This document shows, piece after piece, positions 1 through 54,690 of a stretch of DNA of 54,690 nt (the first letter of the stretch is position 1; the number at the start of each line of letters is the position of its first letter). This stretch comes from Borrelia hermsii DAH. GTDB lineage: Bacteria > Spirochaetota > Spirochaetia > Borreliales > Borreliaceae. The stretch is from positions 1 to 54,690 of the forward strand of contig NZ_CP073139.1 of the NCBI RefSeq assembly GCF_023035675.1. Reading direction: 5' to 3'. The notes beneath the pieces were generated by a model. The model was given only the letters and a program-made list of their open reading frames with translations, was not told where the DNA came from and made no database searches. The translations under genes and the position numbers were made by a program.

Positions 1-1110
1 ATGAGGAGCACAAAAAAGCCTACCAAAAAACATCAATATAAATTAATCGTTTTAATATCTACACTAAACTACATGAACTTAAATCTTAAAAAATACACCC
101 AAAGCAACATACTTTATTACTTTAATAACAATATGAAAAGAAATGGCCAAAAACTTGCTAAGCTTAAAACACTTCAAAAATATCTTTATAAATTAGAAAA
201 AGAATTAGGTGTCACAATTAATTATTACAGACATTTGGGTGTTAACATGGGAACTGAAATTCACTATGACCTTAAGTATTCTAAAAAAGAATGTCATCAC
301 ATAATCAATAAATACTTCAAAGAAAAAAAAGAAGAGAGACACAAAGATCGTGTAAATGCTAGTCTTGAAAAAAGATGTAATAAAAAGGGGAGTGTAGAAA
401 AGGGGGAGTGTATATATAATATATATAATAATAAAAAAGAAGAAAAGAAAGACATAAAAGAAATAGAAAAACTGCAAGTAAAAAAGTACGCTAAGAAATG
501 CAATTTTAGATCAAATGCTTTCTTCTCTATTTTGAATTTAAAACTAGAAAAAGATGTTACAATTAAAGTGCTTAAGATACTTAAAAGGACAGAAAACTTC
601 ATCGAAAAAACTAAACACAAGAAAAAAATCAATATTAAGTCACAAGAAAACAAGCTTGCAAGTAAGCAAAAGGAATTAAGTAGAATACTGGATGAAACAA
701 AAGTCATCTTAAAAAATGAAGGCTATAACAGTAAACAGTTGGAAATCCAAATACAAAAGGTATATGAGCAATATAAAGATAAACCACACTTTATCATAGA
801 AAACAATAAGTACAATGACTTAGAAAAGATAATAGGGAAGCTTAAAAAGACGGTTGAACGTGTTAAAGTAACCGCAAAAGAAGATGAGAAAGAAATTAGG
901 AATAACCTATTTAGCATACTTCTTGAACAATTAAGACATAAAGTAGACACATCAGTTTTAGTACCAATACTGAAAGATTATTTAAACAAACAGAACAAAT
1001 TGGAGTATAACAAGGTATTTAATAATCATTATTACTACGAAATTTTAGAGTTAGTAGAGAGTGGTGGGAATTATTTAAAATTAGGAGAACCCAAAAAAAT
1101 TACGAGTTAA
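1..1110 (+). CDS. Borrelia plasmid replication/maintenance protein, PF57/62 family
   Basis: A 369-residue basic, Lys/Asn-rich protein that opens the maintenance operon. In Borrelia, members of this family (Pfam Borrelia_orfA, from memory) are needed for autonomous replication and are regarded as initiators. The first 110 residues look like a compact helical DNA-binding part (basic segments at 46-67 and 93-112), followed by a charged coiled-coil-like middle (about 180-300). The start is supported by GGAG at 54680-54683, seven bases upstream across the circle junction. The TAA stop forms part of the TAAGGA ribosome site of the next gene, so the two are translationally linked. An A8 run at 323-330 is shortened in copy B. 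Confidence 0.85.
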   Translation: MRSTKKPTKKHQYKLIVLISTLNYMNLNLKKYTQSNILYYFNNNMKRNGQKLAKLKTLQKYLYKLEKELGVTINYYRHLGVNMGTEIHYDLKYSKKECHHIINKYFKEKKEERHKDRVNASLEKRCNKKGSVEKGECIYNIYNNKKEEKKDIKEIEKLQVKKYAKKCNFRSNAFFSILNLKLEKDVTIKVLKILKRTENFIEKTKHKKKINIKSQENKLASKQKELSRILDETKVILKNEGYNSKQLEIQIQKVYEQYKDKPHFIIENNKYNDLEKIIGKLKKTVERVKVTAKEDEKEIRNNLFSILLEQLRHKVDTSVLVPILKDYLNKQNKLEYNKVFNNHYYYEILELVESGGNYLKLGEPKKITS

Positions 1111-1119
1111 GGATTAGTT

Positions 1120-1677
1120 GTGGAGAGTGTATTAGAACGCCTCAAGAAAAAGGAATCAGAGATTAAAGAGAAAAGAGATAAACCCATCTTTGTTAAGATA
1201 GAAAGTCATAATGACAGGACATTATATCACACAAAAATTATGACAGATTTTTATGCATTTGGCATTAATAAAAAGCAAAATAAATTTTTTATTTTGCTTA
1301 GAACATTATTTAATAGAAAGAAAGCGGAATTTTTTAATCTATTTCCTGCAAGAGAAGATGATAAATTTTTAGGTATTTTTTACGGATATAGGAAACCAAT
1401 CAAGAATGTTGTAACAAGATATGAGGAGAACGGGATTATGAAAGCATCTACCTTTTCAAAGGTTTACTACATAGAATTTAGGTTCAAGAAAGGTAGCGTG
1501 TTTTGCTATATTGTAGGAATTTCTTATTTACTTAGAAAGGATAAAACCGATACGAAATATTGCAAATCTTTAGTTGAGAATCTTGCAAACTTAGAAAAGG
1601 AAGTATATGAATTTTATGGTAAAAAATTATCAGACGGAGGGCGCATAAATAAATGGATAGAAAAAAACCTAAGATAA
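1120..1677 (+). CDS. Plasmid partition-associated protein, PF50 family (DUF226-like)
   Basis: A 185-residue protein recognised as the Borrelia PF50 family by its position between PF57/62 and parA and by the central aromatic-rich core (FYAFGINKKQNKFF at about 41-54 and FYGYRKPIKNVV at 89-100). The family works in plasmid maintenance alongside ParA; its biochemical role is not established. It starts at GTG, with AAGGA at 1109-1113 overlapping the stop of the upstream gene; no ATG is suitably placed. Its 3' end overlaps parA by 25 bases, which supports coupled expression. Confidence 0.82.
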   Translation: MESVLERLKKKESEIKEKRDKPIFVKIESHNDRTLYHTKIMTDFYAFGINKKQNKFFILLRTLFNRKKAEFFNLFPAREDDKFLGIFYGYRKPIKNVVTRYEENGIMKASTFSKVYYIEFRFKKGSVFCYIVGISYLLRKDKTDTKYCKSLVENLANLEKEVYEFYGKKLSDGGRINKWIEKNLR

Positions 1678-2402
1678 TCACTATAGCATCAATTAAAGGG
1701 GGTGTTGGGAAAAGTACAAGTTCAATCATATTTGCAACACTATTGGCCCAAAAGCATAAAGTGCTTTTAATTGATATGGATACCCAAGCTTCTACTACTA
1801 GTTATTTTTATGAAAAAATAGAGGATCAAAATATAGATTTAAGAATAAATAACATATATGAAGTTTTAATAGATAAATTAAACGTCAATAGTTCAATTCT
1901 AAATGTTGAAAGTAATTTAGATTTAATCCCTAGTTATTTGACCTTACATAGTATAAATGCATTTGGATATAAGCATACTCTTAGTGAATTTAAATTAAAG
2001 AATGACCTGAAATATTTGAATATTAAGTATGATTACATAGTAATTGATACTCCCCCAAGTTTAGATTTCACATTAACTAGTTCTTTAATTTGTTGTAATT
2101 ATGTAATAGTGCCGATGACAGCTGAAAAATGGACAATTGAAAGCTTTGACCTTTTAAAATTTTTTATGGAAAAAATAGCTTTAGAACTTCCTATTTTTTT
2201 TATTATTACTAGGTTTAAGAAAAACAATACACATAAACGATTATTAGAAATGATTAATTCAAAAAGTAATTTTTTGGGAACTATATCAGAACGGGAAGAC
2301 TTGAATAAAAGAATAGCAGAAAACAATATTTTTGATTTTGGAAAAGACTATATTAAAGAATATGAAAATTCTTTAATAAATTTTTTTAAAAGAGTTGATT
2401 GA
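1653..2402 (+). CDS. parA: ParA-family partition ATPase (PF32)
   Basis: A 249-residue Walker-type ATPase that segregates the plasmid. The deviant Walker A motif KGGVGKST is at residues 15-22, the A' motif LIDMDTQAS at 39-47 and the Walker B strand VIDTPPS near 131-137. GGAGG at 1636-1640 sits 12 bases before the ATG, inside the PF50 gene. PF32 sequence normally defines plasmid compatibility group in Borrelia, so two identical copies could persist together only as a joined molecule. The extreme C terminus (NFFKRVD) depends on a T7 run at 2381-2387. Copy B has T6, which would give a longer end reading LKELIDLNISSTR; which is correct is open. Confidence 0.93.
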   Translation: MDRKKPKIITIASIKGGVGKSTSSIIFATLLAQKHKVLLIDMDTQASTTSYFYEKIEDQNIDLRINNIYEVLIDKLNVNSSILNVESNLDLIPSYLTLHSINAFGYKHTLSEFKLKNDLKYLNIKYDYIVIDTPPSLDFTLTSSLICCNYVIVPMTAEKWTIESFDLLKFFMEKIALELPIFFIITRFKKNNTHKRLLEMINSKSNFLGTISEREDLNKRIAENNIFDFGKDYIKEYENSLINFFKRVD

Positions 2403-2403
2403 T

Positions 2404-2439
2404 TTAAATATTAGTTCAACGCGTTGAACTAATATTTAA
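2404..2439. promoter_or_regulatory. 36-bp perfect palindrome, candidate parS/partition site
   Basis: Every base pairs about the centre between 2421 and 2422 (core GTTCAACG/CGTTGAAC). It lies between the parA stop and the PF49 start. A perfect dyad between parA and the parB-like gene is the expected position for a partition centre or an operon operator. It is not followed by a T run, so a simple terminator is unlikely. It is conserved in copy B. Confidence 0.6.
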
Positions 2440-2459
2440 TATAATTCAAGAGGTTCGAT

Positions 2460-3038
2460 ATGAAAAATAATAAAGAATTAAAAATTAATAAAAGAAATAT
2501 TGATTCAAAAGGGAATGCATTACTTACTGCATCTGATGATAATGAAGAAGGTGCGGGAACAGTTCGTTATAATGCATTGAAAAAGAAATTATATATAAAT
2601 CTTAGGGAAGGAATCTATAACAGAATAGAGTGTATGAAGATTTTAAAAGAAATAAAAGATAATGAATATTATAAGTTAGATGGATATAAAAGTTTTGATG
2701 CTTTTATAAGAAATTATGATGTTGCAAAAACCCAAGCTTATAATTATTTAAAAATTGCAACAGCCTTAGAAGAAGGATTGTTAGAGGAGCAATATGTACT
2801 AGAAAATGGATTTAGACAAATATTAAGCTTACTAAAGGATAAAGAAAGTGCAACAATAAAGAAATCAAAAGTAAATCCAATAAAACCATTAAGGTTTCAA
2901 CTTAAAAGTCAAGAAAGTTATGGTTTTTATAAGAGCAATGCTAAATTTACTAGTTTTTTAATGGATGAACTTTTTGAAAATCAAAAAGATTTGCTTGATA
3001 AGCTTTTGAAGAAGTATAAAGAATTAAAAGGGGAATGA
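2460..3038 (+). CDS. PF49-family partition protein (ParB-like role)
   Basis: A 192-residue protein, the fourth gene of the Borrelia maintenance set. Residues about 58-105 hold a helix-rich stretch (YKSFDAFIRNYDVAKTQAYN) that looks like a helix-turn-helix DNA-binding segment; the C-terminal 30 residues are strongly charged. No ParB nuclease-like motifs are visible, so calling it the centromere-binding partner of ParA is inference from gene order and from the palindrome 20 bases upstream. AGAGG at 2449-2453 is a usable ribosome site. The TGA stop is followed at once by the AAGGA of bdr. Confidence 0.8.
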   Translation: MKNNKELKINKRNIDSKGNALLTASDDNEEGAGTVRYNALKKKLYINLREGIYNRIECMKILKEIKDNEYYKLDGYKSFDAFIRNYDVAKTQAYNYLKIATALEEGLLEEQYVLENGFRQILSLLKDKESATIKKSKVNPIKPLRFQLKSQESYGFYKSNAKFTSFLMDELFENQKDLLDKLLKKYKELKGE

Positions 3039-3051
3039 TAAGGACGTATTT

Positions 3052-3666
3052 ATGAGTAATTTAGCATATAAAACATATAGAACAGAAGATTTAAGGGTAG
3101 AGTTTTTAAATAAGGGGTTTACTGAAGAAGCAGTAGATTTCATTTTACTTCATAATGATAATTCTAATTTTGAAGTCTTAAGGGAAAAGATGAATTCATT
3201 AGAACAACAAATGATTAATGTAGAACAGAACTTAGAAAAAGATATTGAATTCATTAGGATGGAATTTAACAATAAACTAGAAAATTTGGATACTAAGATA
3301 GACAATGTAGAGAAGAATTTACAGAAAGACATATCTAATTTAGAGCGCAGTTTACTTAAAGAAATAGAAAGAAATAATGCAGTCTTAAGAGAAGAAATGA
3401 AAAAAGATAATGCAATCTTAAGAGAAGAAATGAAAAGAGATAATGCAGTCTTAAGAGAAGAAATGAAAAAAGATAATGCAGTCTTAAGAGAAGAAATGAA
3501 AAAAGATAATGCAGTACTATTAGAAAAGCTTGATATGTCAAATAAAGTTTTATTAGAAAAGCTTAAGATAGGGAATAGGATGTTAAACCTTATTTCATTG
3601 ATAGGAATGCCCATCATTACTTCTATTCTTGTATACATAATAACAAACTATTTTGGGAGGGGGTAA
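3052..3666 (+). CDS. bdr: Bdr repeat protein, partition-operon copy
   Basis: A 204-residue Borrelia direct repeat protein. Residues 1-40 form the conserved helical head, 40-107 a coiled coil, and 108-151 four near-perfect 11-residue repeats (consensus DNAVLREEMKK) followed by two decayed units. A hydrophobic segment at about 178-201 is a likely single inner-membrane anchor. Bdr proteins are membrane-associated and their cellular role is unknown. The ribosome site is AAGGA at 3040-3044. It is the last gene of the maintenance operon. In copy B the repeats and membrane anchor are deleted. Confidence 0.88.
   Translation: MSNLAYKTYRTEDLRVEFLNKGFTEEAVDFILLHNDNSNFEVLREKMNSLEQQMINVEQNLEKDIEFIRMEFNNKLENLDTKIDNVEKNLQKDISNLERSLLKEIERNNAVLREEMKKDNAILREEMKRDNAVLREEMKKDNAVLREEMKKDNAVLLEKLDMSNKVLLEKLKIGNRMLNLISLIGMPIITSILVYIITNYFGRG
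3373..3570 (+). repeat. 33-bp tandem repeats inside bdr
   Basis: Four full units (3373-3405, 3406-3438, 3439-3471, 3472-3504) differ by only a few bases. Two degenerate units follow to 3570. The period is exactly 11 codons, so changes in repeat number keep the frame. Confidence 0.9.
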
Positions 3667-3780
3667 TGATACTGAAAATACAGGTAGTTGATTTTACTTT
3701 ATATTTGGTGTACGATAATTATCGTTAGTAGTGCTATTCGTTTTAGGACTACCTATTTTATGATCACCATCAGTGGGCCT

Positions 3781-3832
3781 TAGAGCTTAGTTAAGGATTC
3801 TTTTAAGAGTTTTTAATTAAGCTCTAAATTTT
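3781..3832 (+). terminator. Probable terminator of the maintenance operon
   Basis: A 14-pair stem (3781-3794 with 3813-3826, one G-T pair) with an 18-base loop, followed by AATTTTT. It lies 115 bases after the bdr stop and before the recT promoter. Confidence 0.5.
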
Positions 3833-3893
3833 TATCTTCAAGTTTAATAATGCAATATTTTGCTATCTTTTTATGATTTTTTTGTTAATAGTA

Positions 3894-3948
3894 TTGCAAA
3901 ATTTTAGTTTTTGTTATATATTATTTTTAATAATTCATAAAATAGGAG
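3894..3948 (+). promoter_or_regulatory. recT promoter and leader
   Basis: TTGCAA at 3894-3899, a 17-base spacer and TATATT at 3917-3922 make a good sigma-70 type promoter. The following leader to GGAG (3945-3948) is the same as the leader of the nuclease gene: 30 of 32 bases match 27792-27823 read on the other strand. Confidence 0.6.
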
Positions 3949-3956
3949 ATTAAACC

Positions 3957-5183
3957 ATGAATAATAATATGACAAAACCTGAGATATCAAATACGATTAG
4001 TACAATAACAGAAAAAATGAATTCAAGTAATATTTATGAGGTATGGGAAGCATATAAGAGTATGCATGGACTTAAAAGGATGGATACTCAATCAGAGAGA
4101 GAAATCTTAACTTTACTACAAGTAAATAATCTAAATCCATTCAAGAAGGAAGCATACATAATCCCATTTAATGGGAGATATGCAGTTGTGGTAGCATATC
4201 AAACATTACTTATAAGGGCATATGAGGCAGGGTATAGTAAATATAGCCTTGAATTTAAAGAAGAGATGGTTAAGACAATTAAAATTGATTCTAAAGGTAA
4301 TAAAATGGTACAAGAAGATTGGCAATGTACAGCTTACTTCAAATCAGAGCATGGTAATATTTATAGTTTTTCTGTTTTATTTAATGAGTATTACAAAAAC
4401 TCACCTATTTGGAGAGAGAAACCAGTATTTATGTTAAGGAAATGTGCAGTTAGTTGTCTATGCAGAACTTTGCCAGGCGCGGGGCTTGAGAGTATGCCCT
4501 ATATAAGAGAAGAGTTAGGAGATACAGATGATCTTTATGAAGCTCATAAGGCACAACAAATAGGGCATACTGAAACTGAAAAAATAGTGACTAAAGAGAT
4601 GCGCCCTGTTGATTATGAGTCTGTTACCAAAAGTGATAATAAGCATGTACCATCCAATCTATCAATTGAGAGTGAGGAAGATAATGATGCAAATACCTTA
4701 GGAACTAGACAAGACACAACACAGGAACAATCTAAGGGTGTAGAAACCCCACCTGTAGATGTGAATAGAGTTGTGAAATCTAATAATACTAATACAGTAG
4801 GAGTAAATAAAGATAATAAAGCTAATTCAATTAAGTTTAGTTGCTATAAAAGTCTTCTTATAGCAGCACGTGGTATGCATAAGCATTTGGTTGATAAACC
4901 ATTTAAGAGTATATCGCAGATAAATGCATATTTAAGTGCTATAAAGAAGGGGGATGATTCTTCCTTTTTAGAGTATTTTAATATGAACAAAGCTTTAAGG
5001 AGTGTTAACTATTGGATAGAACTCATTAGAGAATATATATTTAAGAATAATCATCTTATGAGGAAGTTAGATCAATTTGAGGCATTTATAGCGCTTATGC
5101 AGCCTAAATATGAGGATAGTCCACTCAGATTATTTGGATTCTTGTCAAGAGAAGAAGAATTAAGATATTTATTTGATACATAG
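3957..5183 (+). CDS. RecT/Bet-like single-strand annealing protein with C-terminal extension
   Basis: A 408-residue protein. Residues about 25-190 match the RecT family, which anneals complementary single strands during phage recombination: LNPFKKEAYIIPF at 59-71, YQTLLIRA at 81-88 and a Cys-rich helix with TLPGAG near 160-178. Residues 190-275 are a low-complexity Asn/Asp/Thr linker. Residues about 278-408 form a separate helical domain I do not recognise. It is expressed from its own promoter and ends at a convergent terminator. Its likely partners are the YqaJ-type nuclease and SSB on the far side of the origin region, which share its leader sequence. Confidence 0.8.
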   Translation: MNNNMTKPEISNTISTITEKMNSSNIYEVWEAYKSMHGLKRMDTQSEREILTLLQVNNLNPFKKEAYIIPFNGRYAVVVAYQTLLIRAYEAGYSKYSLEFKEEMVKTIKIDSKGNKMVQEDWQCTAYFKSEHGNIYSFSVLFNEYYKNSPIWREKPVFMLRKCAVSCLCRTLPGAGLESMPYIREELGDTDDLYEAHKAQQIGHTETEKIVTKEMRPVDYESVTKSDNKHVPSNLSIESEEDNDANTLGTRQDTTQEQSKGVETPPVDVNRVVKSNNTNTVGVNKDNKANSIKFSCYKSLLIAARGMHKHLVDKPFKSISQINAYLSAIKKGDDSSFLEYFNMNKALRSVNYWIELIREYIFKNNHLMRKLDQFEAFIALMQPKYEDSPLRLFGFLSREEELRYLFDT

Positions 5184-5202
5184 ATGATAATTTAAAGCAA
5201 AT

Positions 5203-18078: not shown

Positions 18079-19287
18079 TTAGCCTTCATAAAAAAATAAT
18101 TTTGCTCTTAAAGCGTCAAGTTCTCTTTGACTTAACGTATTGCTTGATTCTAATTCCTTATATTTAAGGGTTAATTCTATAAGTCGCAAATCTCTCTCAT
18201 ACTTTTCTTCTTCAGTTAGCACATGCAATGAATTAAATCTCATGTCTAAGTAGTAATGCTTACCCAGTTTACTATTACAATTAATTTCTAGCTCTTCTTG
18301 AACACCTTTTAGAAAGTCATAGTAATTCGATCTGTCCCCCTTACCATCACTTCCCAGTCCCTTAACTTGTTCATTAAAGCTCCTTGTTAGTGGTTCTTTT
18401 GTGTCAGCACCTATCTTTGCTTTTACTAATGCTAATGCTTCCTTTAAATAGGTTAAGTCATACTTAATAACCTCCAGTGAGGCATCTGGTGTGCCACTGT
18501 AAAATATTCCTTCATTATTTAAGTTGGATTTAAGTCTAGAAAGCTCTCTTTCTAAATCTCTATTTACACTCTTAAACGTGCTTATATGATTCTCATTTAA
18601 ATCATTTCTTTTAAAGATATTAGGAAATATGCTCGCCCTATCATTAACACCCTTAGTTAAAAGTTCTAATGAGGTTGTAGCATTACTTAAGGCATCTTGT
18701 AATGATACTAATGATTCATCCCTGTAAAATAAAAAGTTATGACTCTCTATTCGCTTTTCTATTTCTTTATATATTTGTTCAAAAAGATATATATTAAGCA
18801 AAAAGCTTTGCGTATAACATGGGCTGTATGCTTTAAGCACATAATCATAATTGGAGTGTATGATTACCCTGCTCTTATGAATCTGTATTTCCTTATAAGA
18901 TATCTTCCCATCTGTATTTACTTTTAAAGTATATGTTATATAAGTAGCATCAGGCCCCTCATCACGAACATTACTATAATCAAGATACATAAACCCAATA
19001 GGCAATTCTTTATTTACTTCCAAGTGTAAATCTTGTAGCTGATCTGCTGTTTTAACTAAAATGTATCCAACACCATTAAAACGATAACTAATAAGACACT
19101 GCAATAATGTTGCTTTTAGCTCTATTTTTAACGTTTCTAAAGCATCATTAACATTCAAAGCAGTAGTTACACTATTTAAAGTGATTCCATTCTTAAGGCA
19201 ATCTTCTGCTACATTTGAAATGTAGTTTCTAAAAAATATTGAATATTTATATAAATCTCTTGAATTAATCTTAAAATTTAAGCTCAT
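18079..19287 (-). CDS. Portal protein (DUF1073-like)
   Basis: A 402-residue protein, first gene of the leftward late operon. The segment LTRSFNEQVKGLGSDGKGDR at about 309-328, followed by NYYDFLKGVQEEL, matches the conserved P-x-R-x-x-G-x...G...GE-x-D...YY...Q region of DUF1073/SPP1-type portals. The position next to terminase and before the capsid agrees. The portal forms the dodecameric DNA channel at one capsid vertex. The coding strand has AAAGG a short distance before the ATG and a promoter about 30 bases upstream. Confidence 0.75.
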   Translation of the reverse strand: MSLNFKINSRDLYKYSIFFRNYISNVAEDCLKNGITLNSVTTALNVNDALETLKIELKATLLQCLISYRFNGVGYILVKTADQLQDLHLEVNKELPIGFMYLDYSNVRDEGPDATYITYTLKVNTDGKISYKEIQIHKSRVIIHSNYDYVLKAYSPCYTQSFLLNIYLFEQIYKEIEKRIESHNFLFYRDESLVSLQDALSNATTSLELLTKGVNDRASIFPNIFKRNDLNENHISTFKSVNRDLERELSRLKSNLNNEGIFYSGTPDASLEVIKYDLTYLKEALALVKAKIGADTKEPLTRSFNEQVKGLGSDGKGDRSNYYDFLKGVQEELEINCNSKLGKHYYLDMRFNSLHVLTEEEKYERDLRLIELTLKYKELESSNTLSQRELDALRAKLFFYEG

Positions 19288-19313
19288 GGCTTATTTAACC
19301 TTTAACGATAGCA

Positions 19314-19342
19314 AGTATAATGCAATATTTAATTTTTGCTAA
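19314..19342 (-). promoter_or_regulatory. Late-operon promoter
   Basis: On the minus strand TTAGCA, a 17-base spacer and TATACT lie 27 bases before the portal start. It is the only good promoter I see ahead of the 14-kb leftward block, although internal promoters are possible in the gaps at 9166-9235 and 6432-6501. Confidence 0.5.
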
Positions 19343-19395
19343 TTATTTCTAACAAAAAATTAAATAATTTTTGTAAAAAAATGACGGAAAAAAAT

Positions 19396-20066: not shown

Positions 20067-21419
20067 TTATAGGAACCTTCTTTTAGTAAAATGTGCTTTA
20101 AGAGAACGTATACCCAAAGTCAATAACATATATGCTGCTGAGAGGCTATCTAATGAATCATCAGCACTCTTTCCATCTCCTTTGTACTTATAAATATCAG
20201 CAATAGCTGACTTGCTTGAATAGTCTAGAATACTTAAGTTAGAACTTGCAAATGGTCCTATTAACGTAGCAATTCTAGTAAATTTATTACTTATAGGTTT
20301 AATTGGCGCAATTCTAAACTCATGACTCATACCTGCTCTAAGTTTAAGAAAGGTTTTAGTCACATTCCCATGCCCAGAAGTATCATCCCTATCTTCAACA
20401 TATAGTGTATGTACATTAAGGTTTGTCAAAATAGTTTTAATTGTATTTAATACCTTAGGATCACTGACTGGTAACTTCTCTTGAAATATAAATGCATAAT
20501 ACTTTTGATCTACTCTTTCTAAAACACAAAGGGCAGTATTATCACCTCCAATGCTGTATGCAGGATCTAAATATGCTATTGGACTTATAAATTCATGATT
20601 ACTTGTAAGATTAATATTGGTAAATATCGAATCGTATGAGGCAACCCATTCTCCCAAAAGTACCCTTGCTTTATATGTTGGCATGTCTTTATAAATCTCT
20701 TCTTGGGTTTTAATAAATTCTTTTGATATTAGTTCATTATCATATGTTGTAAAGTTATATGTAGCATAAGTTTTTTTATTATCAATAAAATCAGTTTTAA
20801 AAAAATGTTCTGGACTGTCTGGATTTGTATCAAATATAATAGTTTCCATACCTACTCTAAGTCTCTTTAAACATTCTATTAATGTTTCTTTATGCAGTGT
20901 AGTTGCTTCATTAACGTAAATAAGAGCGGAATTACTTCCTCTAAACCTTTCAAAATCACTTGCCTTATCTCCACCATATAGATTGACTCTTAAGGAGTCT
21001 ATTTCAAAATATGATGTATTAGAAAACTTTGGCGTAAAGGGTACTCTTAGCATGCTAGCAATCTTTTCAAACTGCCCTAAAACATTAATCTCTAATGATT
21101 TTTGGGAATTACCTAATATAAAATTATTGGTATCCTGCTTATAAAGATGTCTATTCTTAATGAGCATCTTTAGATATAAATAGCAAGCCAAGAATGTTTT
21201 ACCACTGGCAATACCACCTGACAGGATAATTTTACTTCGATTATTATTCTCAATTAATTTTAAAACCTCACATTGTTTCTTAGTTAAATATGTCTTTTCA
21301 AACCCTCTAAAATCAATAACAGTTGCTTTCAGTTTAATTAAATCTGCTATATCAATACCAAATTCACGCTTGTATTCTTTTTGCATTTCCTTAAAAAGAG
21401 GTAGTTTATATATATCCAT
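20067..21419 (-). CDS. Terminase large subunit
   Basis: A 450-residue DNA-packaging motor. The Walker A motif SGGIASGKT is at 67-75, the Walker B strand ALIYVNEA at 165-172 with Glu171, and the coupling motif IIFDTNPD at 194-201. The RNase H-like nuclease domain has Asp285 in YLDPAYS, Glu342/Asp343 in YVEDRDD and Asp421/Asp424 in SADDSLDSLSAA. All expected catalytic acids are present, so it should be functional. It follows the small subunit by 16 bases. Confidence 0.9.
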   Translation of the reverse strand: MDIYKLPLFKEMQKEYKREFGIDIADLIKLKATVIDFRGFEKTYLTKKQCEVLKLIENNNRSKIILSGGIASGKTFLACYLYLKMLIKNRHLYKQDTNNFILGNSQKSLEINVLGQFEKIASMLRVPFTPKFSNTSYFEIDSLRVNLYGGDKASDFERFRGSNSALIYVNEATTLHKETLIECLKRLRVGMETIIFDTNPDSPEHFFKTDFIDNKKTYATYNFTTYDNELISKEFIKTQEEIYKDMPTYKARVLLGEWVASYDSIFTNINLTSNHEFISPIAYLDPAYSIGGDNTALCVLERVDQKYYAFIFQEKLPVSDPKVLNTIKTILTNLNVHTLYVEDRDDTSGHGNVTKTFLKLRAGMSHEFRIAPIKPISNKFTRIATLIGPFASSNLSILDYSSKSAIADIYKYKGDGKSADDSLDSLSAAYMLLTLGIRSLKAHFTKRRFL

Positions 21420-34049: not shown

Positions 34050-34652
34050 TTAATTAAAAGTAATAATTTCTATGTTTTCATTATTTGTAATTTTTAAGAC
34101 ACGTCCTATAGGAATGAGATTTTTTATAAATGCATAAATTGAGTGTGAATATCCTTTAGGAAGGAAATTGAATGTTAAAAATTTATATGCCGTTTTAAAT
34201 CCTTTTTTTGTTTGATGTAATCGAATACGTTTTGGTTTATGCCCTTTAACGGTGCTAGGAGAGATAAAGGAAATAAAGTTAGTTTTTATCCTGTTTAATA
34301 ATTTTATGTTAATTACACCAGCTTGTGGGGTAGTAACTTCAATATCGACATTTAAGAAGGCCTTAAAAAGTCTTATAAATGATTCATCAGTGCCAATATG
34401 ACGTAAAGCAAAAAGTACACTATCAATGTTTGCTACAAGTGATTCGAGTGGTTGGCTTTCAGAGTAAAAGATTCTAAATAGATTGGATAACCAAATGGCA
34501 ATAAAACGTGATGAGCAGTGGCGTGTAGCAGTAATGCTTGTGAAATTAGAATTTAGACTTTTTAGTTCTAGGTACATTGTATTTGCATACTCTAATTCAT
34601 TTTGTATGAACTTTTCAACCCCAGTATCTTGAAGATGGATGGGTATTTGCAT
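34050..34652 (-). CDS. Putative tail protein I, copy B
   Basis: All 200 residues equal the protein at 7341-7943. Confidence 0.6.
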   Translation of the reverse strand: MQIPIHLQDTGVEKFIQNELEYANTMYLELKSLNSNFTSITATRHCSSRFIAIWLSNLFRIFYSESQPLESLVANIDSVLFALRHIGTDESFIRLFKAFLNVDIEVTTPQAGVINIKLLNRIKTNFISFISPSTVKGHKPKRIRLHQTKKGFKTAYKFLTFNFLPKGYSHSIYAFIKNLIPIGRVLKITNNENIEIITFN

Positions 34653-34666
34653 TTTTAATAGCTCCT

Positions 34667-35545
34667 TTAAGTTGTAATGTCAATGATTAATCTGTCAGTA
34701 AGATTGAAGATAAGTATTTCCTCAGGCTTAACTTCAATATTAGTATTTTCCTTAAATTCTGAATCAGTAATGCTTGCAATTTTAGTGTCATCTGTGTCTT
34801 TAATGCAAGCATATATTTTCATACTCTTAATTCCCTTAATCTCATTAACAGGAGCTATAAAATCTTGATATTCAAAGCTGATGCCCATATCAGGATAGTT
34901 ATTAGTTACAATACGTTTGTATATATCTCTTATTTGCATGTCTATGTTAAGATATATGTGATTCTTAAGATCAAGTTGATATTTTACTTTAAGGTATACG
35001 TATTTTTTCTTTCCTAAAGATATTTTATAGCTTTTGAGTTGATTATGAGTGTTAAGGCCATCAATTGTGATACTACCATTAAAGAGTGTACCTACAGGCA
35101 TAGTTGAATAAAGCACTTTCCAAAGTTTGGCTTTAAATGTAGAATCAGTGATATCAGTTTTACTAGAATTTAGTAAAGAGTCATTTAATATAAGATAAAT
35201 ATCAGCTGTTCCGGCTTTAGAATCAATATTGACGTACTCTATTTCTTTAAGTTTAAGCAATGATGAACGAACCGCATCAAAGGTAGTACTCTTAACACTT
35301 ATGTGCTCTTCGATTGCCTTAAAGTATTCGCCACCGGGACTTACTTTAGAGAAAAATGAATTAAGTTCATCAATGATTTGTTCTTCAATTGTTGCAAGTG
35401 AGGTTGCAATAATATTGTAAATGGAGGATGGGTCATTATTAATGACAATCCCATGCATATCTCGTAAGTATGCTCGTTTGGCATTAACTATTTGTTGGAT
35501 ATTCTGTTTTAGAATACCAAAATCAGGATCAAAAAGAATGCTCAT
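34667..35545 (-). CDS. Baseplate J-like protein, copy B
   Basis: All 292 residues equal the protein at 7958-8836. Confidence 0.68.
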   Translation of the reverse strand: MSILFDPDFGILKQNIQQIVNAKRAYLRDMHGIVINNDPSSIYNIIATSLATIEEQIIDELNSFFSKVSPGGEYFKAIEEHISVKSTTFDAVRSSLLKLKEIEYVNIDSKAGTADIYLILNDSLLNSSKTDITDSTFKAKLWKVLYSTMPVGTLFNGSITIDGLNTHNQLKSYKISLGKKKYVYLKVKYQLDLKNHIYLNIDMQIRDIYKRIVTNNYPDMGISFEYQDFIAPVNEIKGIKSMKIYACIKDTDDTKIASITDSEFKENTNIEVKPEEILIFNLTDRLIIDITT

Positions 35546-35874
35546 ATTCTAATCTCCATATCTAAAGTGTCGTTTGCAAATTCAAATATAATGTTTAATG
35601 TGTTATTTTTAGTAATTGTTTCAATGTTGACAACATCAATCTTGAGGTCTTGTATAATGCTTGAAAAGTAAGTTTTAATTTGTGTTAAAGAGCTTGTCTT
35701 AGCAAACCTTGTAAAGAAATTATAATCAAATCCCCAATTAGGAGCATTCTTAAGACTACCCTTTGGAGTTCTTAAAAATATAAATAAACGTTGCTTTTGT
35801 TCATTTATTCCACTAGTTAATGCTAAGTCTTTTTTAAAAACCAAATTAAATTGGTTGTCAATCTGTAAATCCAA
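35542..35874 (-). CDS. Baseplate wedge gp25/W-like protein, copy B
   Basis: All 110 residues equal the protein at 8833-9165, with the same TTG start. Confidence 0.65.
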   Translation of the reverse strand: MDLQIDNQFNLVFKKDLALTSGINEQKQRLFIFLRTPKGSLKNAPNWGFDYNFFTRFAKTSSLTQIKTYFSSIIQDLKIDVVNIETITKNNTLNIIFEFANDTLDMEIRI

Positions 35875-35944
35875 TCTTTAACCTTTTAATGATTCTAATT
35901 TAACCTTTAACCGGTAGTAAATATAGCACTATTTTGGCAAAAAC

Positions 35945-36487
35945 CTATTTTAGTAACATATTTATTTTAGTTGTAATTTTTACAAGATTGCTGTAAAAGC
36001 TAGGTTCAACACTAGCATTTCCAATGACCCGTAAATTTTGTAGACAAGAAACAATTTCTTCTAATACTGCCCTTAAGCTTGTATTGTTAGCTTTAATGTC
36101 TATGGGGTTTTGTATGTCAATTGCAAAGTCATTAACTTTGATAGTAGCATTTTGCATGTTAATTGGCCTTAGAATATAAAAATAGTTTTTGTCAAAATAA
36201 TGATTATCATCCTCATTAAAAAGGTTAATACTACTTTGAAGTAAGATTACCCCGTCATTTTCTTTAAGATTAAAATGCATGTTTGATATATTGCGTGTCT
36301 TAATTTCTAAGTCTGTGTGTCCAGAGAGCAAAACAACACCTTCTTGTGTAGAGGCGTTAAAAGATTTGATTATTCCTATTTTAGAGATAAAAATGTTTCT
36401 ATAAGTCCATAGTTTTATTTCTTCTTGTGTTAACGGGGAGCCTTTCATTTGGCTATTCATTCTGTATATTTCATAATTCAAGTTCAT
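35945..36487 (-). CDS. Putative spike/baseplate protein, copy B
   Basis: All 180 residues equal the protein at 9236-9778. Confidence 0.55.
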   Translation of the reverse strand: MNLNYEIYRMNSQMKGSPLTQEEIKLWTYRNIFISKIGIIKSFNASTQEGVVLLSGHTDLEIKTRNISNMHFNLKENDGVILLQSSINLFNEDDNHYFDKNYFYILRPINMQNATIKVNDFAIDIQNPIDIKANNTSLRAVLEEIVSCLQNLRVIGNASVEPSFYSNLVKITTKINMLLK

Positions 36488-37474
36488 TTATTTAGCTGTC
36501 CCATTTATTTCTAAGTAATTAGAGTCATCATAAAGCTTAAGGATAAGTGAGCATTCACCAGTATTGCTTAAGATAGCATTAGACTCTATAATACTGCTCT
36601 TAACTTCTTTTCCAAGCGAGTCAATGAATTTTACCCTGTCACCAACTTTCAGTTTGTGTGTGTACATAACTTTGGCATTCCAATATATAAATCTTATACT
36701 TAAAGTACTGCCAATAGTAATCTCTTGTTGAGGAATAAACTCAAGACCAAAATCTTCAAGAGGTAGATAATTTGTATTTTGCTCTGCAGGTGTGGCGTTA
36801 GTAAAAATGTAATTACACTCAACATGAGTGTTCCCGAGAGCCGATTCTTTAATAAGTTGTGTATGCTCCTTAGGTACAATATCTGTTCTAACACTTTGAA
36901 CATACTTTTTAGTTATCTTTTCAAGAAACTCAAGAGGAGTATTTGCACAAAAACTTTCTGTTATAATTTTTGTTCTCTCAGCATAGCTCATATTGATAAT
37001 GCATTTACCAGGAAAAGCTGATTTAATTGCATTCTCTACACTCATTCCCTGGAATTGATTTATTTTAAGCTTGCGATTGAAATAATTACTTTTTGTTGCC
37101 AAATGAATTTCAAGGTCAACACTAAAATCTCCATTGGGATAATCAGTACTCATAGGAACACCCAAATAACCTGCCATAATAAAGTCATAATCTTTAGAGT
37201 CTGCGAACTTTTTATAAGATATTTTTACAATATCTCCTTCATTTACATTATCAGTAAAGTCTATAGGTAGGTTCCAAAGGGTTAGCTTGCTTTTCTTTGC
37301 ACACACATAATTGTTACTTGAGTACATATCAGATATTGATATGTCAATGTGTATTCCATCTTCAGTTTTAATTATAATTTTAGGCTTTTCTTCTGATGTG
37401 ATATTCTTAGTGCTAGTTTTACTTGGATTATAAAATTCGATTTTGAAGTCGTATTTGATAAGTCTACATTCCAT
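36488..37474 (-). CDS. Putative tail hub protein, copy B
   Basis: All 328 residues equal the protein at 9779-10765. Confidence 0.58.
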   Translation of the reverse strand: MECRLIKYDFKIEFYNPSKTSTKNITSEEKPKIIIKTEDGIHIDISISDMYSSNNYVCAKKSKLTLWNLPIDFTDNVNEGDIVKISYKKFADSKDYDFIMAGYLGVPMSTDYPNGDFSVDLEIHLATKSNYFNRKLKINQFQGMSVENAIKSAFPGKCIINMSYAERTKIITESFCANTPLEFLEKITKKYVQSVRTDIVPKEHTQLIKESALGNTHVECNYIFTNATPAEQNTNYLPLEDFGLEFIPQQEITIGSTLSIRFIYWNAKVMYTHKLKVGDRVKFIDSLGKEVKSSIIESNAILSNTGECSLILKLYDDSNYLEINGTAK

Positions 37475-37478: not shown

Positions 37479-38114
37479 TTATCCTTTATATATTGAAAAT
37501 GTTTTAAGAACTTCTAAGGTAAGACTAATTTCAACCTCATCAAGGTATACTGTGTCCTTAAGGGTAAGAGAGGTAATTGCAACAATACCCCTAAACCCTA
37601 AAGTTGGACTGTAGAAACTAAATGGTACACTCTCTTCAACTCTATTAATAAGTTGTTGTTTTGCCAGATTACTGGTATGAGGAAAGATTAACTTTCCAAA
37701 AGCCGTATTAGCCGAGAATTTAAGCAGTTCCTTATAAGCACTAGTTAATACAGCATTATTTAATGTGATAACTTCACCAGTGAAAGTTGGATTGTAACTT
37801 ACATATTCAGATTTACGTGTGTAGTAGTCAATTACAGGACGCTTTGAACATGTTGTGGTGTAAGTTGTGCTAATTAGTTCAGTTTTGGGTAAGATGAAAA
37901 ATCCTTGTGGAACGTATCCCAGTCCCTTAAAGTCCATCCTTGGACATAAACTTAAGAAGTTATATGCCATAAACACACTAGAAATTTCATTGAATGTTTC
38001 TTTAAGGATACTTGTTACTTGTGATGGAGTAAGCTTTAAGAAGTCTAGTGTTGCCTTTACTGGTGCTGTGTCTTTATATTTATGAATGAAGTCTGTTGTA
38101 AGCTGTGGTATCAT
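37479..38114 (-). CDS. Tape-measure-proximal tail protein, copy B
   Basis: All 211 residues equal the protein at 10770-11405. Confidence 0.55.
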   Translation of the reverse strand: MIPQLTTDFIHKYKDTAPVKATLDFLKLTPSQVTSILKETFNEISSVFMAYNFLSLCPRMDFKGLGYVPQGFFILPKTELISTTYTTTCSKRPVIDYYTRKSEYVSYNPTFTGEVITLNNAVLTSAYKELLKFSANTAFGKLIFPHTSNLAKQQLINRVEESVPFSFYSPTLGFRGIVAITSLTLKDTVYLDEVEISLTLEVLKTFSIYKG

Positions 38115-38127
38115 ATTTAAATGCTCC

Positions 38128-39474
38128 TTAAGGTGTTCTTATGCTTGCGTCTGTTTCTAATTTTGATTCAGTATCAGTACTTAAGAGTGGTGAATGGCTT
38201 TTATCTGTTGTAGGTTTTGAACCAAATAACCATTTGTATGCCCAATTAGGCAGTGTTAATTTTAGAATTTGATTTCCAAGCTTTATAAGCCATTCGTTAA
38301 TGTCACCGAAAAAACTTTTAATTCCGTCTATTATGGGCTCAACAATATGTGTTTTGACGGTAAAACCTGTTAACCATTTAGCTATGGTTTCTATTTTTTC
38401 CAACATGGGTTGGAATACACTAGCTGAAAGTTTTCCAAATGAATCTTGAGCTTTATCCAGACTATCCTTAATTTTTTCAGCTTCACTAGCATAAGTAGGA
38501 AACTCAAGAGAGTTCCAGTCCTTAATAATTTCTTTTAATTTGTCTGTTCTGTAATCAAAGGTATAACCAGTTGCTACTCTGTCATATTCCATTTCGGCTC
38601 GTTCATTATATTTATCAGTAAATTTATTAAATGAACTCATAATGTTATAAAGAGAACCGCTTTTGCCTTGCAAGAATTCTGCTACTGCAGTAATAGCAGA
38701 ATTCTTATCACTAACAACCCCGGTAGATTTAAGCTTTGCAGCAAATGCTACAGCCTGCTTAAGATTATCGTCATTGTTTTGACCTAAGTGTTGTAATACT
38801 TTTCTAAGAGTCCCAGCAGAGTTGAGAAAATCTTCTCTTTCAATGCTGTTCCCAAAACCAGGTATGCCTTGAAGCATGCTATCAAGTTTGCTCTTTTCAT
38901 TTGTTTTAAATACTCTTGAAGTAATTAAGTCAAGCTTTTGAAATCTAGCATCATTAAGTATAGATTTTTTTGCAAAATTCAAGATATCACCAATACCACT
39001 TTGAAAGGTATGACCCACTATATGTCCAAGAGCAGTTCCAGTAGCAATTTTCAAAATGCTACCGCCTTTAAGAATACTTTTTTGGATAGCTTTGTGAAGT
39101 ATTGTTTCCTTATGCTTGCCACTTTTCATTTCTTCATATTCTAATCGTCTTCGGTCTTTACTTGACATAAGTGAACGCTTGAATGCTTTTTTTCTAGCTT
39201 CCTCAAATTTGTATCCTAGCTTAACAAGTTTTTTAGTTTCAGTAAATCTAAACTTTTCTACCCTTTCTCGTAATTTCTCATATTTGGTTTGTTTGGCTAG
39301 TTCACGTTTCTTCTCAGATAAGTTATGTTTTAAGATATCTTTAGTGCTCTTTAGAGAAGATTTTTTAGGTTTAATTAAATGTTCTAGTTTAGAAATGTCT
39401 TTTTCTAATGATTTGCGAGTTGATGCATGATCTAGCACTCCTGTAAATTTAATTGTAAATTTTGGAGTATTCAT
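38128..39474 (-). CDS. Tail tape measure protein, copy B
   Basis: All 448 residues equal the protein at 11419-12765. Confidence 0.7.
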   Translation of the reverse strand: MNTPKFTIKFTGVLDHASTRKSLEKDISKLEHLIKPKKSSLKSTKDILKHNLSEKKRELAKQTKYEKLRERVEKFRFTETKKLVKLGYKFEEARKKAFKRSLMSSKDRRRLEYEEMKSGKHKETILHKAIQKSILKGGSILKIATGTALGHIVGHTFQSGIGDILNFAKKSILNDARFQKLDLITSRVFKTNEKSKLDSMLQGIPGFGNSIEREDFLNSAGTLRKVLQHLGQNNDDNLKQAVAFAAKLKSTGVVSDKNSAITAVAEFLQGKSGSLYNIMSSFNKFTDKYNERAEMEYDRVATGYTFDYRTDKLKEIIKDWNSLEFPTYASEAEKIKDSLDKAQDSFGKLSASVFQPMLEKIETIAKWLTGFTVKTHIVEPIIDGIKSFFGDINEWLIKLGNQILKLTLPNWAYKWLFGSKPTTDKSHSPLLSTDTESKLETDASIRTP

Positions 39475-46775: not shown

Positions 46776-48128
46776 TTATAGGAACCTTCTTTTAGTAAAA
46801 TGTGCTTTAAGAGAACGTATACCCAAAGTCAATAACATATATGCTGCTGAGAGGCTATCTAATGAATCATCAGCACTCTTTCCATCTCCTTTGTACTTAT
46901 AAATATCAGCAATAGCTGACTTGCTTGAATAGTCTAGAATACTTAAGTTAGAACTTGCAAATGGTCCTATTAACGTAGCAATTCTAGTAAATTTATTACT
47001 TATAGGTTTAATTGGCGCAATTCTAAACTCATGACTCATACCTGCTCTAAGTTTAAGAAAGGTTTTAGTCACATTCCCATGCCCAGAAGTATCATCCCTA
47101 TCTTCAACATATAGTGTATGTACATTAAGGTTTGTCAAAATAGTTTTAATTGTATTTAATACCTTAGGATCACTGACTGGTAACTTCTCTTGAAATATAA
47201 ATGCATAATACTTTTGATCTACTCTTTCTAAAACACAAAGGGCAGTATTATCACCTCCAATGCTGTATGCAGGATCTAAATATGCTATTGGACTTATAAA
47301 TTCATGATTACTTGTAAGATTAATATTGGTAAATATCGAATCGTATGAGGCAACCCATTCTCCCAAAAGTACCCTTGCTTTATATGTTGGCATGTCTTTA
47401 TAAATCTCTTCTTGGGTTTTAATAAATTCTTTTGATATTAGTTCATTATCATATGTTGTAAAGTTATATGTAGCATAAGTTTTTTTATTATCAATAAAAT
47501 CAGTTTTAAAAAAATGTTCTGGACTGTCTGGATTTGTATCAAATATAATAGTTTCCATACCTACTCTAAGTCTCTTTAAACATTCTATTAATGTTTCTTT
47601 ATGCAGTGTAGTTGCTTCATTAACGTAAATAAGAGCGGAATTACTTCCTCTAAACCTTTCAAAATCACTTGCCTTATCTCCACCATATAGATTGACTCTT
47701 AAGGAGTCTATTTCAAAATATGATGTATTAGAAAACTTTGGCGTAAAGGGTACTCTTAGCATGCTAGCAATCTTTTCAAACTGCCCTAAAACATTAATCT
47801 CTAATGATTTTTGGGAATTACCTAATATAAAATTATTGGTATCCTGCTTATAAAGATGTCTATTCTTAATGAGCATCTTTAGATATAAATAGCAAGCCAA
47901 GAATGTTTTACCACTGGCAATACCACCTGACAGGATAATTTTACTTCGATTATTATTCTCAATTAATTTTAAAACCTCACATTGTTTCTTAGTTAAATAT
48001 GTCTTTTCAAACCCTCTAAAATCAATAACAGTTGCTTTCAGTTTAATTAAATCTGCTATATCAATACCAAATTCACGCTTGTATTCTTTTTGCATTTCCT
48101 TAAAAAGAGGTAGTTTATATATATCCAT
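46776..48128 (-). CDS. Terminase large subunit, copy B
   Basis: All 450 residues equal the protein at 20067-21419. Confidence 0.9.
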   Translation of the reverse strand: MDIYKLPLFKEMQKEYKREFGIDIADLIKLKATVIDFRGFEKTYLTKKQCEVLKLIENNNRSKIILSGGIASGKTFLACYLYLKMLIKNRHLYKQDTNNFILGNSQKSLEINVLGQFEKIASMLRVPFTPKFSNTSYFEIDSLRVNLYGGDKASDFERFRGSNSALIYVNEATTLHKETLIECLKRLRVGMETIIFDTNPDSPEHFFKTDFIDNKKTYATYNFTTYDNELISKEFIKTQEEIYKDMPTYKARVLLGEWVASYDSIFTNINLTSNHEFISPIAYLDPAYSIGGDNTALCVLERVDQKYYAFIFQEKLPVSDPKVLNTIKTILTNLNVHTLYVEDRDDTSGHGNVTKTFLKLRAGMSHEFRIAPIKPISNKFTRIATLIGPFASSNLSILDYSSKSAIADIYKYKGDGKSADDSLDSLSAAYMLLTLGIRSLKAHFTKRRFL

Positions 48129-49809: not shown

Positions 49810-50577
49810 ATGCATGAAAAGGAACTCTTAACTAACAGTAATCTTAACTTTATAAATGAACTAATAAAGCAAAATGAATGCCTCAATGAAGAATTGTCAC
49901 AACTTAAAAGTACACTTAAGAGTAAAAATAAAGCTTCAAAACAATCAAAAAACACTCCTGTAAGATTCTATCTAAATGACAAAACAACCAAACTAGTAAA
50001 AAAATGTATAAAAAAGCTTATACAAATCAACCCAATCTCTGGATGGTTTGTATATATCTTAAGTATTACTGGTTGCAGAGGTGTTGAGATACAAAATGTA
50101 AGACTATCTGATGTATCAAAAGAAACAAGCAGCGATGGTGAAGTATTCTATTCTCTTCGTGTTAATGTAGCAAAAAAGAGAAGTAGTATCTGCATAAGAG
50201 AAGTAGTTATTAGTGAGTCTGAATTTGATGCTATTATGCAAATACATCAAGAACATTTTGCAAGCAAAGGAAAAGACAAAAGGCGTACTTATCTTTTTCA
50301 AAAGAGTAAACACAAATTCCGTGACAATAGAATTAGCATAATTAAGATTTCAAAACAATTTAAATCATTGCTTCTTAAAGCAGGATTTAGGTATCGTAAA
50401 TCTTTACATATATGTAGAAATATATTTATTGCCTCACTAAAGTCTAAAGGATACAACTCATTTGAAATTAAAGAACTTATGAAATACTCATCTACTACTG
50501 AGATTGATAATGTTTATGGACTCTCCCCTGCAAGTAAAATTAATGCTTACAAAGATATCAAAACTAGCTTGAAATAA
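49810..50577 (+). CDS. Tyrosine recombinase, copy B
   Basis: All 255 residues equal the protein at 23101-23868. Confidence 0.82.
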   Translation: MHEKELLTNSNLNFINELIKQNECLNEELSQLKSTLKSKNKASKQSKNTPVRFYLNDKTTKLVKKCIKKLIQINPISGWFVYILSITGCRGVEIQNVRLSDVSKETSSDGEVFYSLRVNVAKKRSSICIREVVISESEFDAIMQIHQEHFASKGKDKRRTYLFQKSKHKFRDNRISIIKISKQFKSLLLKAGFRYRKSLHICRNIFIASLKSKGYNSFEIKELMKYSSTTEIDNVYGLSPASKINAYKDIKTSLK

Positions 50578-53132: not shown

Positions 53133-54494
53133 TTAAGCACTTACAATGGGAGTTGCAATATCAGACCATTGCTGCACTGAATCTAAACTACTAGCAAGAA
53201 AACTGATATTGCCACTTAACGATTTGAATCTATCTTTAATAGCTCGCTTGGTTGTATCTAAAGAAAATAGATTACCTTCAAAGCAATAATTTACATGCTC
53301 CATTAATGAAAATTCTGCAAATATTTCATCTATTCGGGATTTAAGTTTATCTTTCATAGGTTTTGTTGTCTTATATAACTCTTGTGTATGTCTATTCTTA
53401 GCTATCTCTTCTGCTTCTTCTATCTCTGTTTGCAAAGCACTAATTTCACTAAGACATCCTTTCAACAGATTATCCTTCTCTTTATCAATCTCCAGGTCAG
53501 TACATCTTACAAATTCTAAAAAGTCATCTTTATACTCTGATTCTGAAAAATATTTGTATATCTCACTACTCTCAATCCCTTCTTGAATTAGTTCACTTAA
53601 ACTATCTAAATCTATATTCTCAATATCATACTTTGCTCTTAAAGTTTTGGCAATGCGACTTACTTCCGCTTCCATTCTTGAAACATCAAACATTACTTCA
53701 TTAATAAACTTATCATCCCTCTCAATTACACAATTAATAGCTTCATTACCTATTAGAAAAAACAGATTCCCCTTACTTAAACCTGTACATAAAAGTTGTA
53801 TTTGCACTTGAACGTAATACTTGAAAAAATATTTGTTTTCTAAGAAGTTACCATTCTTATTGTATTCAATTACAGCACTCTTTAAATGAATATTATCACT
53901 GCATTTAATTTCTAAAAGTTCTGCTTCCCCTTCTTGGTTTTCAAACCAACCATCAATTGTTGAACCAACCAAATTATCCCGTCCCTTAAACTTCTTGAAG
54001 TAATTATACTTATCTATCCCATTTGCATATTTATTCTTATGTAAAACAGCAATCTCATCAGAGTGTATACGTACAAATTCATCAAACCCTAAATTCTCAA
54101 GTATCTTTCCTTTCCTCATGCTTAAGTTCTCTTCAAATGAAATCTCTCTTCCTAATAATTTCAAGACCCTATCAAGCATTAATTTTGAAACACTCTCTGC
54201 TCCAATAAACATACTCCCAACTTCACTTGCTCCTATACGCTTTAATGAATTCCTTTGAATGTTAAAATCAACTTTGCTATTAAACTTGAAACATTCAGTT
54301 TTGCCAATTCTTGATAGCTTGCGTCCTATTCTGCTTATTTTACTTACACTTTTTTGTCTCTTATTAATCTGGTCTTGACTTTGATGTGCAAATGAATCAA
54401 ATCCTTCAAACATTTTTTGATCATACAAACCTGGCTGCTCCATCCCTACCTCTACTATTTTCTCTTTTGTTTTTGTTGCTTTTATATTTGTCAT
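53133..54494 (-). CDS. YqaJ-like exonuclease, copy B
   Basis: All 453 residues equal the protein at 26423-27784. Confidence 0.75.
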   Translation of the reverse strand: MTNIKATKTKEKIVEVGMEQPGLYDQKMFEGFDSFAHQSQDQINKRQKSVSKISRIGRKLSRIGKTECFKFNSKVDFNIQRNSLKRIGASEVGSMFIGAESVSKLMLDRVLKLLGREISFEENLSMRKGKILENLGFDEFVRIHSDEIAVLHKNKYANGIDKYNYFKKFKGRDNLVGSTIDGWFENQEGEAELLEIKCSDNIHLKSAVIEYNKNGNFLENKYFFKYYVQVQIQLLCTGLSKGNLFFLIGNEAINCVIERDDKFINEVMFDVSRMEAEVSRIAKTLRAKYDIENIDLDSLSELIQEGIESSEIYKYFSESEYKDDFLEFVRCTDLEIDKEKDNLLKGCLSEISALQTEIEEAEEIAKNRHTQELYKTTKPMKDKLKSRIDEIFAEFSLMEHVNYCFEGNLFSLDTTKRAIKDRFKSLSGNISFLASSLDSVQQWSDIATPIVSA

Positions 54495-54521
54495 TTGTAA
54501 ACTCCTATTTTATGAACTACT

Positions 54522-54575
54522 AAAAATAATATAGCAAAAAATTGTTTTTGTCAAAACTTTTGCTATATTATTTTT
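54522..54575. repeat. 18-bp inverted repeat operator candidate, copy B
   Basis: Identical to 27812-27865. Confidence 0.6.
54526..54554 (-). promoter_or_regulatory. Early-operon promoter, copy B
   Basis: TTGACA, 17 bases, TATTAT on the minus strand, as at 27816-27844. Confidence 0.65.
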
Positions 54576-54580
54576 TTGTT

Positions 54581-54622
54581 ATTTTTAATAAAAACATTTT
54601 ATAAAATGTTTTTATTAAAAAT
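54581..54622. repeat. 42-bp perfect palindrome, copy B
   Basis: Identical to 27871-27912. Confidence 0.75.
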
Positions 54623-54625
54623 GGA

Positions 54626-54655
54626 TTTACTTTTTAACGGGTATTGCATTATCAT
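54626..54655 (+). promoter_or_regulatory. Replication gene promoter serving position 1
   Basis: Same TTTACT / TATCAT pair as at 27916-27945. Confidence 0.35.
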
Positions 54656-54690
54656 GATTAGTAGTAAATTCATAAAATAGGAGATTTAAT

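Follow-up and report, generated by a model that had tools for sequence, protein, structure and literature searches.

The window analysed here is one complete contig of 54,690 bp (C4), deposited as circular in the 12-contig, 1.50-Mb genome of Borrelia hermsii DAH, and appears to correspond to the plasmid cp55 of this strain (PMC9158201). It carries the same cp32-like phage-plasmid twice, head to tail, and we consider cp55 to be probably an assembly duplication of a 28-kb monomer. The single junction inside the duplication would then be a contig end, and the molecule in the cell a monomer. The analysis covers the deposited sequence. An earlier note on this DNA had read the window as a dimer, naming a covalent dimer and an assembly duplication as the choices. 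Its layout, its coordinates and that choice stand; its commitment to the dimer is not favoured, as the recT deletion and the frameshifts cluster at one junction in the manner of a contig end.

Two units and a single junction

The two units and the region around their junction are laid out as follows:

1-27980, same orientation as unit 2: unit 1, a complete cp32-like phage-plasmid unit of 27,980 bp with all partition and maintenance frames open
27981-54690, same orientation as unit 1: unit 2, 26,710 bp, the sequence of unit 1 minus 1,270 bp
3371-4640, no strand: segment found in unit 1 only, 1,270 bp holding the end of Bdr, a spacer and the start of recT; the region is present in plasmid cp28 of B. 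hermsii HS1 (hereafter HS1)
31350, no strand: the single junction, at which unit position 3370 is joined to 4641, with 1 bp common to both sides
27981-31349, no strand: the stretch of unit 2 before the junction, with five of the six small insertions/deletions (indels) and with the PF57/62, ParA and Bdr frames broken

Alignment bore out the two same-orientation units of 27,980 and 26,710 bases that had been proposed. An over-run contig is expected to hold copies identical apart from assembly errors, and the two units differ, over 26.7 kb, by 0 substitutions, six indels of 1-2 bp and one 1,270-bp gap. Positions 4641-27980 align with 31350-54690 over 23,341 columns with 0 substitutions and one indel, and 1-3370 align with 27981-31350 with 0 substitutions and five indels. 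At the DNA level 34 of 39 genes are identical; the differing ones are PF57/62, ParA (PF32), Bdr, RecT and a small open reading frame (ORF) at 25402-25767, the count of 39 being our own ORF choice with names taken from the HS1 annotation. The control regions before 27981 and before the end of the window, described as identical, are so over their final 2,512 bases. This two-unit repetition is far beyond chance. The record holds two whole units of the same orientation in one circle, the layout expected of a covalent dimer, but the circle itself depends on the assembly. The window was also considered as a piece of a larger replicon, which is ruled out, the window being the whole contig.

An over-run contig is further expected to show one gap or overlap junction with errors on its tail side. 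Five indels lie at unit positions 323, 2052, 2381, 3236 and 3323, that is, within the 3,370 bp preceding the junction, the last two at most 135 bp from it; none falls in the following 20,827 bp, and the sixth is in an A-run at about 25,468. Calculated post hoc, the probability of at least five of six indels falling in the pre-junction stretch is 1.7e-4 when judged by length and 1.1e-3 when judged by homopolymer runs. All of them except that at 3323 are changes of length in runs of 4 or more. The five pre-junction indels break the PF57/62, ParA and Bdr frames of unit 2, while those of unit 1 are open, and at four of the five pre-junction sites HS1 matches unit 1. The partition frames are likewise open in C2 and C3, monomers of the same genome.

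The joint itself was sought elsewhere. In a plasmid collection that may omit records very near the window, 25 records matched a 401-bp query spanning the junction, and none of the 25 covers 80% of it; in the ten of these matches that were listed, the alignment starts at the joint and extends rightwards only. The intact stretch 3000-5200 is fully covered by HS1 at 98.6% identity. Deletion through recombination between the 33-bp Bdr repeats is ruled out, as the repeats reach the left end only and the joint shares 1 bp. Genuine decay, of the kind known from B. lusitaniae cp26, is not favoured for unit 2 either, as it should give substitutions and none are seen.

Probable assembly duplication and competing explanations

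We hypothesize that a linear contig started at unit position 4641, ran to 27980, made a full lap and ended at 3370, and that its ends were joined as if circular, giving 1.95 laps round a 27,980-bp circle. The 1,270-bp "recT deletion" would then be the gap separating the two contig ends, and the frameshifts of unit 2 in PF57/62, ParA and Bdr would be consensus errors in a thinly supported contig tail. Short reads free of these errors would align preferentially to the clean copy, which may be why Pilon did not correct them. Joining the two ends of a linear contig is expected to leave a single junction that lacks real homology and falls at an arbitrary place, with errors on the tail side, and the window shows this pattern.

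The DAH assembly was made from Oxford Nanopore Technologies R9.4.1 rapid-barcoding reads, which are deposited in SRA, with Canu v2.0, apc.pl trimming, self dot plots, Racon, Medaka and Pilon (PMC9158201). In tests of Canu v2.1, its contiguity usually overshot 100% by thousands of bases; values of about 200% were sometimes seen for smaller plasmids, most often with Canu and NextDenovo/NextPolish (Wick and Holt, PMC6966772). As in those contigs, a single contig from the same assembler holds one plasmid twice, head to tail; in contrast to them, the window lacks 1,270 bp of two full laps and was deposited closed, and the versions differ (v2.0 here, v2.1 there). The deposition of the HS1 relative as a 27,881-bp monomer also counts for the monomer.

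Several observations weigh against an assembly duplication. At site 323, in a diverged patch, HS1 has the shorter form of unit 2 (C2 and the YOR plasmid cp60 share the length of unit 1). The sixth indel is remote from the junction, and unit 1 carries the minority form there, with 7 A in unit 1 and YOR cp60 and 8 in unit 2, C2, C3 and HS1. A 26.7-kb end overlap should have been caught by apc.pl and the self dot plots. The authors of the assembly retained cp55 as a replicon, and the same study reports read-supported long-read dimers for other plasmids (PMC9158201). Finally, in B. puertoricensis cp61, discussed below, the tail differences are mostly substitutions, whereas the tail of cp55 has none.

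If cp55 is an artefact, the DAH genome carries 26.7 kb in excess. The broken PF57/62, ParA and Bdr genes of unit 2 would then be false pseudogenes and its recT deletion would be false as well, and the record could wrongly count as two partition loci of the same type on one replicon.

A real covalent head-to-tail homodimer is unlikely in our estimate. In that case two cp28 copies would have recombined within identical sequence, perhaps helped by their own RecT, YqaJ-type protein and SSB; the product would have persisted with no Xer-type resolution available, and unit 2 would afterwards have lost part of recT and the PF57/62 and ParA frames. The plasmid does encode RecT and a YqaJ-like domain, through which such a dimer could form, and the record was accepted as cp55. 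Circular dimers are known in Borrelia (PMC12958805, PMC11389397, PMC3303823), including cp32 fusions, Southern-confirmed in JD1 (PMC3303823), and cp26 dimers; those of B. lusitaniae are degraded, and laboratory ones are said to be stably maintained (PMC12958805). However, cp32 dimers are described as fusions of different cp32s and not as the dimerization of one plasmid (PMC12958805). The lack of substitutions and the crowding of indels on one side of the sole junction also speak against a homodimer, as does the absence of the recT deletion from all 25 plasmid records matching the junction query.

The recombinases of the genome bear on both sides of this question. A PF00589 search gave four matches, confined to C2, C3 and the two units of C4 (the search was positive in 14/14 control genomes), and a PF00239 search for resolvases gave no match in the genome (10/14 control genomes positive), a pattern that favours persistence of a dimer. 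On the chromosome the PF00589 search found no tyrosine recombinase, with the limit that a diverged Xer below the search could be missed. Against a homodimer, the tyrosine recombinase of the plasmid looks intact: it keeps R90, H200, R203 and Y236, which we take to be its catalytic residues, and these do not vary across an alignment of nine rows, of which two are the window's identical copies. Dimers of phage P1 are resolved by Cre, and by analogy the plasmid enzyme might resolve dimers itself.

The more specific proposal, that cp55 is a stable true homodimer with one working partition locus of two near-identical ones and with one recT lost, strikes us as quite improbable. Such a homodimer, if true, would be at an early step of turning into one new replicon, in a cell that lacks recognised Xer-type resolution. 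A real homodimer would also allow dimer resolution and partition to be studied naturally where no chromosomal PF00589-family recombinase was found. It would be another case of a known type, Borrelia circular dimers being known already.

The earlier note had further argued that two separate plasmids with one PF32 type should be incompatible. This argument is weaker than stated, since an exponential culture of B. burgdorferi held several copies per cell of each of 16 plasmids (PMC9712426), and for cp26 merodiploids a dimer or "two separate, coexisting cp26 monomers" were named as possible forms (PMC2229028). Plasmid incompatibility does not decide between monomer and dimer. The same two reports allow a mixture of two monomer variants, of 27,980 and 26,710 bp, in the culture or the cell, which would have been threaded into one circle, the shared 26.7 kb exceeding most read lengths. 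This would account for two recT forms within otherwise identical sequence, and for YOR and SLO plasmids the authors could not exclude forms existing independently across a polyclonal population (PMC9158201). We nevertheless hold a mixture to be very unlikely, because the crowding of small indels in the 3.37 kb before the deletion is left unexplained and none of the 25 records matching the junction query has the deletion.

Reads of monomer and dimer form are reported for the YOR and SLO plasmids; cp55 is not mentioned among these cases in the excerpts of that paper, nor do they contain a gel, Southern or long-read demonstration of a dimer-size cp55 (PMC9158201). In the excerpted literature naming B. 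hermsii cp55, no statement on its homodimer status was found. The dimer is not favoured, and assembly duplication remains the preferred explanation.

Comparison with other Borrelia plasmids

The nearest record to the unit is HS1 cp28 (NZ_CP014351), which fully covers bases 1-25000 at 98.2% and has the same partition gene set and an intact recT region. It differs in being a 27,881-bp monomer, in scattered positions and in a strongly diverged stretch at about unit position 22,090-22,860, including the Mlp gene. JD1 cp32-1+5 resembles cp55 in being one circle of about 60 kb with two full-length cp32-type units, but these are two different cp32s with different partition types, Southern-confirmed (PMC3303823). 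Two partition types, the mark of a heterodimer fusion, are not seen in the window, where the partition regions of the units differ by five small indels and 0 substitutions. The B. lusitaniae cp26 dimer, unlike cp55, has divergent halves, with 14/26 gene pairs broken in one member (PMC12958805).

The signature of the window (0 substitutions, one junction, one-sided errors) can be used to screen other deposited "dimers" quickly. B. puertoricensis cp61 fits it, and the start of B. burgdorferi B31_NRZ cp32-1_1 fits it in part. Among the listed records (60 of 540, in two listings), 11 had a length of 48-62 kb and exactly two terminase places; our survey covered 10 of these, NZ_CP075081 being omitted. 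Six of the ten were read to base 50,000 and four completely; for NZ_CP075386 the halves were compared, outside the binned comparison. Half-against-half mismatches in the first 50 kb, paralogous blocks counted, number 0 in cp55, 73 in cp61 and 111 to 1,171 in the other nine records. In eight of those nine the partition region was read twice, and its aligned blocks agree at about 73-91%, which is what fusions between different plasmids should show; in the ninth, B31_NRZ, the stretch read ended inside the second PF57/62 gene.

One of the ten surveyed records, B. puertoricensis SUM cp61 (NZ_CP075389), carries the same ParA accession twice. Like cp55, it comes from the same study and has two near-identical units, one junction (38690) and differences crowded before it: 96 of 99 lie in the preceding 1.3 kb and one in the 21,951 bp after. 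Unlike cp55, it has an 862-bp overlap instead of a gap, and 70 substitutions among its tail differences. By this pattern cp61 is the mirror signature of cp55. The annotation splits several cp61 genes at the 38690 junction.

Four records blur the split between such duplications and fusions. In B. miyamotoi MN18 cp59, the main block has nearly equal numbers of indels and substitutions (56 vs 63). In YOR cp60 (NZ_CP073151), 1-1008 recurs at 29643-30653 with 99.6% identity, before the second unit's own 88% PF57/62 block, and is annotated as fragments; the repeat is either an untrimmed overlap or a real rearrangement. In B. turicatae BTE5EL cp60, two 99.9% identical blocks flank a 1.5-kb difference, with no error tail. 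In B. burgdorferi B31_NRZ cp32-1_1 (NZ_CP019756), a 16.5-kb block has 0 substitutions and three indels, all in its first 2 kb. Positions 1-2007 of this record look like a contig end; no gene is annotated there, and the other half has portal and DUF1357 genes at that place.

Further features of the surveyed plasmids were recorded. Unit 1 of BTE5EL cp60 is without about 1.5 kb at 8046, where DUF276 and DUF693 genes meet; the segment is present in unit 2 (37754-39283). In both BTE5EL cp60 (29278-32483) and SLO cp58 (29.6-34 kb), the second partition locus has many substitutions and indels relative to the first and is annotated in fragments; this pattern, if real, would mean that one of two partition loci decays in fused circles. 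Outside the survey, the laboratory cp26 dimers are those of B31, reported by way of a citation of Tilly 1998 (PMC12958805).

The DAH replicons are given as the chromosome, cp30-1, cp30-2, cp55, cp90, lp12, lp185, lp26, lp27, lp28, lp31 and lp59 (PMC9158201), and the contigs measure, in order, 927,976; 29,472; 29,738; 54,690; 89,551; 12,304; 184,687; 25,951; 26,534; 27,874; 30,908 and 58,883 bp. C2 (taken as cp30-1) is 97-99% identical to unit 1 over most phage genes and 88% or less in the partition region, a likeness that offers ample substrate for inter-plasmid recombination in one cell. C5 (89,551 bp, taken as cp90) is ruled out as a multimer of cp55, the shared pieces being at most 2.4 kb and mostly 74-91% identical; it is a mosaic with many internal repeats, e.g., 32720-36828, inverted at 83537-87648 (99.6%). 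C6 (12,304 bp, taken as lp12) has two 5.96-kb halves that repeat each other in inverted orientation at 99.97-99.98% identity, and the F27 family has been described with such inverted duplications (PMC10580987).

Gene content of the phage-plasmid unit

The gene content marks the unit as a cp32-like phage-plasmid, with the 27.9-kb cp28 of B. hermsii HS1 as a close relative. Bases 1-25000 match 417 plasmid records (Borrelia 263, Borreliella 151, "Candidatus" 3), with HS1 cp28 at the top, and a search of a phage collection with the same bases gave no near match. Its main features are:

1-1110, plus strand: PF57/62 (Borrelia_orfA, 369 amino acids) of unit 1; the unit 2 copy ends after 117 amino acids
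1653-2402, plus strand: ParA / PF32 (249 amino acids) of unit 1; the unit 2 copy ends after 136 amino acids
2460-3038, plus strand: PF50 (Plasmid_parti, 192 amino acids); the unit 2 copy is identical
3957-5183, plus strand: RecT (408 amino acids) of unit 1; its start is absent from unit 2
20067-21419, minus strand: large terminase (TerL); second copy at 46776-48128
23101-23868, plus strand: tyrosine recombinase (PF00589); second copy at 49810-50577
26423-27784, minus strand: DUF244 protein with a YqaJ-like recombinase domain; second copy at 53133-54494
27871-27912, no strand: perfect palindrome of 42 bp, with the divergent DUF244 and PF57/62 genes on either side; repeated at 54581-54622

A Pfam scan of ten proteins identified Borrelia_orfA (PF57/62), DUF226, a ParA-type ATPase (PF32), Plasmid_parti (PF50), RecT, Phage_integrase, terminase, DUF603 and a DUF244 protein with the YqaJ-like domain; for Bdr it gave no match. 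The partition and maintenance set of PF32, PF50, PF57/62 and DUF226 is thus present (PF02414, PF02890, AAA_31/ParA-like, PF01672). The cp32-like character is further seen in the terminase, found by Pfam, and in the portal, holin and late block, found by alignment of the structural block with HS1 cp28, a record whose annotation names the portal, BlyA/BlyB, SSB and a DNA adenine methylase. In B. burgdorferi, cp32 is reported to be packaged in virions by a headful mechanism from a pac site (PMC11008901). The PF57/62 gene of HS1 cp28 (18275-19379) is annotated in three pieces, as in unit 2 but broken at other places.

The 42-bp palindrome is a candidate operator or origin element, and HS1 cp28 differs from the window across this stretch. 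A 55-bp imperfect inverted repeat lies between parA and PF50 in both units (2395-2449 and 30372-30426) and is a possible partition site or terminator.

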